DNA of 64,000 nucleotides, taken from the NCBI GenBank assembly GCA_903895855.1, contig CAITVN010000215.1, forward strand, positions 53,331 through 117,330, read 5' to 3'. Below are positions 21,176 to 23,422 of the stretch, piece by piece. The notes beneath the pieces are model-generated. The model did no database searches. It was not told the DNA's origin and saw nothing but the letters and a program-made list of their open reading frames with translations. A program made the translations under genes and the position numbers. The stretch is from Oligoflexia bacterium. Its GTDB lineage: Bacteria; Bdellovibrionota; UBA1018. Within the stretch, counting starts at the first letter, position 1, and the number at the start of each line of letters is the position of its first letter.

Positions 21176-21316
21176 TTTTATTAAACCTCTCTAGTGTCAA
21201 ATTTAAATCAGCCATAAGATAATCATGTAACCCCTTTTTTTTCAACAAGTTATGTCTCACACAGCACACCAAATCAGACGCTTGCAGGTTCTCAAATAAT
21301 TACTCATAATAGGGGT

Positions 21317-21847: not shown

Positions 21848-23422
21848 GTGACAACCTTGATAAAGTTCTCAAAAAAGAAAAAATCTAGACCCACTAACCC
21901 CTCTACGAGCGAGAAACCCTTTGATCGCCACTTAGAACTCATTTGGGATTTCATCTATTCTATCGTTTGGAATCAACGTGGGGCTCGAGCCATCTTTAAG
22001 ATAGAAACCCGAAAAATTTCGCACTTCAGAACCGTCAGACATGTCCAATCAGAAACCCCTGACTTTCAAAGAAATTGGATCCTCAAGCAGACGTGGGAAG
22101 TGCTATCCAAGAACTATGACTCTCATCAGAAAAAACTATCAGCCTCTGAGCAAGTCATGCTCGATTCTCTTTTTGAACCCGAACTGAGGCTAAAAAACTT
22201 TGAATCGTATTTTCATCGCCTGAACCTAAAAGAAAAAGCGGTGCTGCTCTTTCGTGACAAATACGGTTTTTCAACCTCAGAAGTGGCGTCAATTCTGAGT
22301 ATTTCCGAAGGTTCTCTGAAGCTTTTGAGGCAAGAAGCCCTCAGTTCGGTAGAACAGTGGATTTGGCCCTCACTGGTCGACAAATTCGCATTAAGTTCGC
22401 CCGATAGGTCAAGCGCTGCAAACGCCGTATTTTCTCTGAATATCTCCCCCGTAGAACAGCAACCGCCTTCGTTTAACTGCTCGCAGCTGGAGAATTCAAT
22501 CTGTGATCTCATCGATGGAACCCTAAGACCTGTTGTACGGGAAAATGCATTAAAACACCTCGATAATTGCCCTGCGTGCCAGAAATATTTTAAACACCTT
22601 CAATCAATCATGACGGCATTGAAAAACATCAAAAGGCACCCACTTCCGGTCCACCTCGCCCAAACAAAAAGACCAGAAAACTCTAGCCAACTACTCAAAC
22701 TTCAGTTGAGAAGAATATCAGAGTCCGGCCGCTTTAAGCTCCTCACGCGAACAGTGATTGAAGGAACCACCCTATGTGCTGTAATTATCGCGGGATTCGC
22801 CATACTTCCCAAAATACCGTCACTCTTTGTAAAAAAATCTTCATCTGAAGTCTGGAATTATGAACTGAAAGACCTGCTCAGCCCGAATCAAAACAGTCCA
22901 TCAAAAGACAAACAAGCCGCGATTCAATCCGCGGCCATCATTAACCCAACTGGCGGAATGAATCTAATCGATGACCATGAATCTGTTGATGAGTTCGAGG
23001 AAGACGCCGTTGACGAAGCTGAGTCTGAAGATATTTCAAAAATCATCGCAAAGAGCGGCGAAATTTGGCGATTTAATTTTAAATCACACACCCCAAGCGA
23101 GCTGAAAACCCGGGTAATCACACGTATCGAAAAACTCTCCAATCACCTAAATCAAAAAGATTTTAAGATCTCTGAAGTGCCGGGAGGCATCCAAATCGAC
23201 CTAATCGCACCGACCAAAGTAACTCAAGACATCTTTAATGACCTTACTCGCGACGGGGCAGACCAATTACTCCGGGCATCTGCAGATCAAAAAACGACAA
23301 AGCTTACAGCAGGCATATTAACCTCCTCTGAAGGAAGTGAGTTTACCTGGTACAGAAACAAATCAAAAAAACCGATTCCTCAGGGCTCGGCACGTATCGT
23401 TTTTTGGCTCTCGCAAATATAA
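21848..23422 (+). CDS. Apparent fusion of ECF sigma-like region and membrane anti-sigma factor
   Basis: This 524-residue protein looks composite. The first ~190 residues resemble an ECF sigma factor, with a weak region 2 and a region-4 helix-turn-helix (LNLKEKAVLLFRDKYGFSTS, then EVASILSISEGSLKLLRQEA). Residues ~205-250 resemble a zinc-binding anti-sigma domain (CSQLENSICDLIDG, then HLDNCPACQKYF). A membrane segment follows near residue 310 (GTTLCAVIIAGFAILPKIP), then an acidic linker and a C-terminal extracytoplasmic domain of about 130 residues. The start is GTG at 21848, 3 bases after the HNH stop. A single-chain sigma/anti-sigma switch is my inference. The sigma part may be degenerate. 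Confidence 0.7.
   Translation: MTTLIKFSKKKKSRPTNPSTSEKPFDRHLELIWDFIYSIVWNQRGARAIFKIETRKISHFRTVRHVQSETPDFQRNWILKQTWEVLSKNYDSHQKKLSASEQVMLDSLFEPELRLKNFESYFHRLNLKEKAVLLFRDKYGFSTSEVASILSISEGSLKLLRQEALSSVEQWIWPSLVDKFALSSPDRSSAANAVFSLNISPVEQQPPSFNCSQLENSICDLIDGTLRPVVRENALKHLDNCPACQKYFKHLQSIMTALKNIKRHPLPVHLAQTKRPENSSQLLKLQLRRISESGRFKLLTRTVIEGTTLCAVIIAGFAILPKIPSLFVKKSSSEVWNYELKDLLSPNQNSPSKDKQAAIQSAAIINPTGGMNLIDDHESVDEFEEDAVDEAESEDISKIIAKSGEIWRFNFKSHTPSELKTRVITRIEKLSNHLNQKDFKISEVPGGIQIDLIAPTKVTQDIFNDLTRDGADQLLRASADQKTTKLTAGILTSSEGSEFTWYRNKSKKPIPQGSARIVFWLSQI

Follow-up and report, generated by a model that had tools for sequence, protein, structure and literature searches.

Single polypeptides that unite a sigma factor with its anti-sigma factor have been published for IutY (PMC5411451) and for the groups ECF36, ECF48, ECF52 and ECF53 (PMC8999054, PMC5826349), so that this class of architecture is already known. 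IutY of Pseudomonas putida (ECF243) is an active sigma factor which is released by Prc and RseP in a siderophore response (PMC5411451, PMC8999054), and ECF52 proteins, which are confined to Actinobacteria, show a full ECF domain match (TIGR02937) together with a proline-rich region and a carbohydrate-binding domain (PMC5826349). A preliminary description of the gene studied here regarded its single-chain arrangement as unusual, which is true for most ECF sigma factors, but not for IutY, ECF52 and the others already published. An earlier study of Bdellovibrio sigma factors names other genes (PMC3464611), and literature searches retrieved no paper describing the family of the present protein. 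What is new here is this protein family, its degenerate sigma-2 domain, its undescribed outer domain, and a series of split and fused forms.

The gene lies in a window of 64,000 nucleotides, the whole stretch of DNA that was analysed, and its reading frame is open from a GTG start codon onwards. The locus comprises the following features.

21282..21310, + strand: conserved promoter of sigma70 type (TTGCA-N18-CATAAT), which ends 6 nt ahead of the HNH start codon
21317..21844, + strand: gene with an HNH endonuclease domain, the constant upstream neighbour within the order (PF14279/PF01844, synteny)
21848..23422, + strand: single ORF of 524 aa with sigma-like, anti-sigma-like, transmembrane and extracytoplasmic parts (ORF, Pfam, AF2)
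21917..22126, + strand: sigma-2-like domain, aa 24-93 (AF2, Foldseek, hhalign, column comparison)
22136..22165, + strand: conserved linker LSASEQVMLD between the sigma domains (alignment)
22211..22363, + strand: sigma-4 helix-turn-helix, aa 122-172 (PF08281, AF2, Foldseek)
22367..22471, + strand: linker, aa 174-208, between the parts that most family members encode as two genes (alignment, start-codon scan)
22472..22624, + strand: class I anti-sigma domain with zinc motif (PF13490, partial TIGR03988 match, motif, AF2)
22754..22831, + strand: transmembrane helix, aa ~303-328 (hydropathy, alignment, AF2)
23060..23416, + strand: extracytoplasmic alpha/beta domain, aa 405-523 (alignment, AF2, Pfam/PDB searches)

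The preliminary description had proposed that a sigma-type part, a zinc anti-sigma part, a membrane helix and an outer domain are covalently joined, and this proved right. No in-frame ATG, GTG or TTG occurs between residues 160 and 255 of the window ORF; thus, the anti-sigma domain is not separately translatable from a standard start and the two halves form one chain. In the window's own family, most genomes divide these parts between two neighbouring genes that overlap or abut, the first encoding a sigma-like protein of ~150-200 aa and the second a zinc-finger membrane protein of ~300 aa. Homologues that are single ORFs were found in genomes G015, where the zinc motif is intact, and G023; almost all the remaining families of the order and class have them too, almost invariably lacking the zinc motif, and an eroded form is present in G012. 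A fusion created by assembly or sequencing from two overlapping genes might be suspected in a draft genome of 244 contigs whose close relatives have the two-gene form. However, the join holds ~35 codons without counterpart in the two-gene forms, which is more than one indel would produce, and the independent genomes G015 and G023 as well as all outgroup families also carry single ORFs. On the grounds of this linker and of the independently fused genomes, a frameshift or assembly artefact was dismissed as highly improbable.

Hydropathy analysis revealed one hydrophobic segment (residues ~303-328) located within the AF2 helix 296-342, and the AF2 model showed a folded alpha/beta domain at ~405-523, both as expected from the membrane helix and extracytoplasmic domain originally described. 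A Glu near the start of the transmembrane helix is conserved across the aligned family, and a charged stretch of low AF2 confidence lies between this helix and the folded outer domain. The membrane topology was assigned on the assumption that the sigma half, by its nature, is cytoplasmic.

For the class I zinc anti-sigma signature a published rule was followed (PMC7406223). The zf-HC2 profile (PF13490) matched residues 211-245 of the window protein with an E-value of 4e-4 and 20.8 bits, just below the cut-off of 22.2, and matched a split relative above the cut-off (E 3.9e-7). The zinc motif itself is intact, C211 upstream being followed by H237-x3-C241-x2-C244 (C..Hx3Cx2C), and AF2 placed the helices of this domain at 211-259 with a pLDDT of about 95. 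The profile match and the Hx3Cx2C motif together assign the domain to the class I zinc anti-sigma proteins, confirming the motif (HLDNCPAC) noticed earlier. The motif is kept in 24 of 25 split proteins versus 2 of 18 fused ones, the window protein being one of the two fused forms seen with it intact and that of G015 the other; as only about 2-4 independent contrasts underlie these counts, no significance can be claimed for an association between fusion and zinc loss. One two-gene relative (L070 4977-5873, equal to L025 1940-2836) encodes an anti-sigma-like protein without the zinc ligands, which its close relative L020 keeps.

In the N-terminal half, Sigma70_r4_2 (PF08281) matched residues 122-165 in Pfam (E 5.8e-5), with a score of 25.6-25.8 bits in a one-genome search against a cut-off of 25.7, and was detected in the N parts of 25 of 27 relatives (best E 7e-9), which substantiates the ECF-like region-4 helix-turn-helix of the preliminary description. 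Sigma70_r2 (PF04542) matched neither the window protein nor the N parts of the 27 relatives, so that two of the three profiles proposed for such a search, Sigma70_r4_2 and zf-HC2, were detected. The weak single-sequence matches are not due to chance, given the Sigma70_r4_2 hits in 25 of 27 relatives, the zf-HC2 hit above the cut-off in a split relative and the conserved gene order; a weak-profile artefact was excluded by these far better scores in relatives and by synteny. Two more Sigma70_r4_2 matches above the cut-off were observed elsewhere in the window's genome, at G000:C79:23507-23644 (L086) and G000:C93:34543-34656 (L087), in frames of 234 and 218 aa, respectively, that lack a Sigma70_r2 match.

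A single-sequence PDB search with the window protein yielded noise only and was later replaced by a profile search, in which the N-part profile aligned end to end with SigW, its best sequence match (E 1.2e-6). When a profile of 25 two-gene members was compared by hhalign with 20 true ECF sigma factors, drawn from the same genomes and their relatives, 153 columns were aligned with 98% probability and an E-value of 1.6e-14. In the AlphaFold model of the window protein, residues 24-172 are predicted with confidence except for one loop, with sigma-2-like helices at 24-40, 43-61 and 71-93, and Foldseek aligned both sigma domains with the sigma chain of SigW-RsiW and CnrH-CnrY, and with PhyR. The SigW profile match, the hhalign result and the structural comparisons indicate a complete ECF fold in the N part. 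The N-terminus is therefore not devoid of sigma homology, the outcome that would have spoken against the original description, as region 4 matches its profile and profile-profile and fold comparisons recover both sigma domains. The linker between these domains, with the consensus L-T-P-S-E-Q-x-M-L-D, is specific to the family.

Region 2.2 residues of sigma factors contact the beta-prime clamp helices, and residues of regions 2.3-2.4 act at the -10 element. In a single merged alignment, the basis of the residue-loss argument, the region 2.2 Gln was present in 20/20 true ECF sigma factors as against 1/25 split relatives, where Arg mostly takes its place; the 25 split relatives likewise do not conserve the acidic residue that precedes this Gln by three positions (20/20 true ECFs) or, in region 2.4, Asp and Arg (19/20 and 18/20, respectively). 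The signatures [DE]xxQ of region 2.2 and D..R of region 2.4 are thus lost family-wide, while the sigma-4 helix-turn-helix persists, as do structural positions, for example the Trp of region 2. As a positive control, PF04542 recovered sigma factors in 20/20 genomes, many of them ECF-sized and no family member among them, with true ECFs of the same genomes scoring about 23-65 bits. As the profile misses the family but finds true ECFs, and as split members have lost the residues too, the loss is a property of the whole family and not specific to fused forms. The sigma region 2 that had been called weak indeed has no profile match, but weak is too mild a term, its fold being kept and its signature residues lost. 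Measured against ECF sigma factors, the protein possesses the sigma-4 helix-turn-helix and the sigma-2 fold and lacks the sigma-2 core-binding and -10 signature.

With these residues gone, the cytoplasmic half most likely carries out no normal sigma transcription start. We consider it moderately probable that the protein is a membrane transducer derived from a sigma/anti-sigma pair, with a pseudo-sigma domain, and not a conventional sigma factor. The domains, their homology, the synteny, the residue loss, the split and fused forms and the vegetative-type promoter are directly supported. The ancestors would have been a sigma factor of the ECF type and the cognate class I zinc anti-sigma factor, brought into one chain, in which the complete two-domain sigma-like fold may be clamped in cis by its own anti-sigma domain. 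The membrane helix would link this cytoplasmic half to the family-specific outer domain, probably the input, and upon a signal the pseudo-sigma domain would be exposed or released by conformational change or proteolysis, and might then alter another partner or a sigma-4 DNA site. Against a pseudo-sigma domain it can be argued that the basic residues of sigma-4 and the intact fold in two-gene members are not what one would expect of a dead domain, and that a divergent sigma-2 could bind polymerase via other residues.

The sigma-4 recognition helix also bears on a further alternative, a membrane-anchored one-component DNA-binding regulator that uses the sigma-4 helix-turn-helix alone. Its basic residues are conserved in two-gene members and partly kept in the window protein, as such a regulator would predict, but in several fused relatives the recognition helix has no basic residues or is undetectable, and we regard this alternative as quite improbable.

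The neighbours of the window gene are the HNH, redoxin, rplQ and rpoA genes. The two-gene form sits behind the HNH gene wherever the contig extends that far, and in many two-gene relatives rpoA is found on the same contig, a few kilobases off. Sites resembling TTGCA-N18/19-TATAAT were present upstream of the HNH gene in all 20 scorable regions (window 21282-21316, L035, L051-L079), 18 of them with at most one mismatch versus 0.26 expected, and the -10 box mostly ends 6 nt before the HNH start codon; from the sequence, the HNH operon mRNA is predicted to be possibly leaderless. The ECF-type bipartite motif was not found in the HNH upstream regions (0 versus 1.2 expected from shuffles), and autoregulation through an ECF-type promoter was rejected on this count. 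As sigma70-type sites occur in all the scored regions and ECF motifs are absent, the unit looks vegetatively transcribed, unlike typical autoregulated ECF operons.

These data also bear on whether the protein is a working single-chain sigma/anti-sigma factor of the IutY/ECF52 type, in which a periplasmic signal would trigger RseP/Prc-like cleavage and the freed sigma would transcribe despite its unusual sigma-2. The order of parts is that of ECF52 (PMC5826349), the overall plan is that of IutY (PMC5411451), and the sigma fold is intact by AF2 and Foldseek. The core-binding and -10 signature is, however, lost family-wide, the region 2 profile has no match although it recognizes true ECFs of the same genomes, and the operon has no ECF-type promoter, so that we hold this explanation to be unlikely. 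The genome does encode a strong M50 site-2-type protease, but to our knowledge M50 proteases are universal and the gene thus does not discriminate in favour of such a mechanism. A sigma factor that is released from its own anti-sigma factor to act, as first envisaged, is doubtful because the sigma-2 contact residues are missing even in two-gene members, and the lack of an ECF-type promoter adds to this doubt; the fallback offered with it, a membrane regulator that arose from a sigma/anti-sigma pair, agrees best with the data.

The gene was found in 45 of 58 related genomes by one search and by a profile search in 52 of the 58 and in 33 of 35 good genomes, essentially as a single copy; within its class (Bdellovibrionota), almost every genome has one copy. 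The named relatives are genomes from metagenomes that bear the labels Oligoflexia, Bdellovibrionales, Bacteriovoracaceae or Bdellovibrio, and thus belong to the Bdellovibrionota. On a species tree built from rpoA, rpsD, rplQ and rpsK and rooted on family f15, at least four changes between split and fused forms were counted, all forced by supported branches, and every outgroup is fused. This suggests that the single chain is ancient, and that fission of it may have given rise to the two genes seen in the window's family, with later fusions. On the window's own branch, the old fusion may have been kept, or the two genes may have been joined anew at a later time. The window gene has diverged faster than its neighbours: identities to the split relatives are 78-83% for RpoA (median among split relatives 83%) and 63-72% for the HNH protein (76% among split relatives), versus 31-40% for the N part (47%) and 26-34% for the C part (42%).

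Scores of the sigma part were about 180-250 bits in the family's split forms, 148 in the window, 134-179 in G015 and G023, 76-107 in G036 and G039 and <35 in the other fused rows, whereas the membrane/outer part scored 37-250 bits throughout the same rows; since the sigma part of a split protein of family f4 reached 97 bits, distance also contributes to this fall. By profile comparison, fused forms of f2 keep a whole sigma homologue, those of f5 only sigma-4 and those of f15 at most a helix-turn-helix; Pfam finds no sigma part in f5 and f15, and in the class outgroup G057 sigma-4 exceeds the Pfam cut-off in a fused chain. In f15, a family of the same phylum with a single ORF of about 435 aa, the N-terminus (L183-L188, L190-L200) is Trp-rich and helical, with a weak helix-turn-helix and no zinc motif; this resemblance would be a weak sign of sigma ancestry.

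No part of the family is better conserved than the outer domain, which has a mean column identity of 53% among 28 members and is modelled as a folded alpha/beta domain (pLDDT 86) that matched neither Pfam nor PDB sequences or folds. Its conserved stretch WRFxLKTDSP...APGGIQFDL...FTWYKNKS...VVIWLSQ (window 23060-23416; L051-L079, L183-L200) extends beyond the class into f15, and the domain is still recognizable where the sigma part erodes. A vestigial cytoplasmic half, with the conserved function residing in the membrane helix and outer domain in an envelope role, would agree with the constancy of the outer domain from the window to f15, with the sigma part undetectable by Pfam in f5 and f15, and with the absence of the zinc motif from 16/18 fused forms. 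Sigma-4 and the zinc motif are nevertheless maintained in the window and in two-gene members, so that the cytoplasmic half has not decayed in the window organism, and we give this explanation little credence.

Bdellovibrionota are the phylum of bacterial predators. The family provides them with a regulator-like membrane protein that is conserved, almost universal and, as it seems, so far undescribed, and whose gene lies next to the ribosomal operon of rpoA. Its forms, which comprise separate gene pairs, fused chains with zinc, fused chains lacking zinc and chains whose sigma part has nearly gone, make up a natural series useful for studying how sigma/anti-sigma pairs fuse and then lose their original function, and the sigma fold without a polymerase-binding signature is a testable case. 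Tentatively, and with rather less confidence than for the window protein itself, we propose a phylum-wide family in which an ECF sigma factor became a pseudo-sigma that would have ceased to engage polymerase but would still pair with its own anti-sigma in cis or in trans and relay a signal from an undescribed periplasmic domain. If so, repeated fusion or fission with graded loss of zinc and sigma features would trace a transcription factor becoming a membrane protein.

Compared with known systems, the window protein shares with IutY a plan of one chain in which a cytoplasmic ECF sigma-type domain, a membrane helix and a periplasmic region are combined with anti-sigma function. It differs in having lost the sigma-2 signature and in carrying a zinc anti-sigma domain, and at the locus level an outer-membrane receptor adjoins IutY, whereas the neighbours here are the HNH and rplQ/rpoA genes. 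The order sigma, zf-HC2, transmembrane helix and extracytoplasmic domain is that of ECF52, as in SCO4117 of Streptomyces, but region 2 is degenerate, TIGR02937 reached 18-20 bits against a cut-off of 42.9 and over region 4 only, and the outer domain belongs to no known family, with no Pfam or PDB match to a carbohydrate-binding domain. The sigma-like domain of PhyR, the anti-anti-sigma factor of the general stress response, binds an anti-sigma factor and not polymerase. Its sigma fold matches the window model structurally (Foldseek); PhyR, however, is soluble and, as a response regulator, contains a receiver domain, for which the window protein has no Pfam match. From SigW-RsiW the window protein differs in its fused form, in its lost sigma-2 contact residues and in the vegetative-type promoter of its operon, yet this pair, with its Hx3Cx2C motif, provides the best sequence match of the N part and ranks with its best fold matches, and the two-gene form of ECF/class I anti-sigma pairs is common in the window's own family too.
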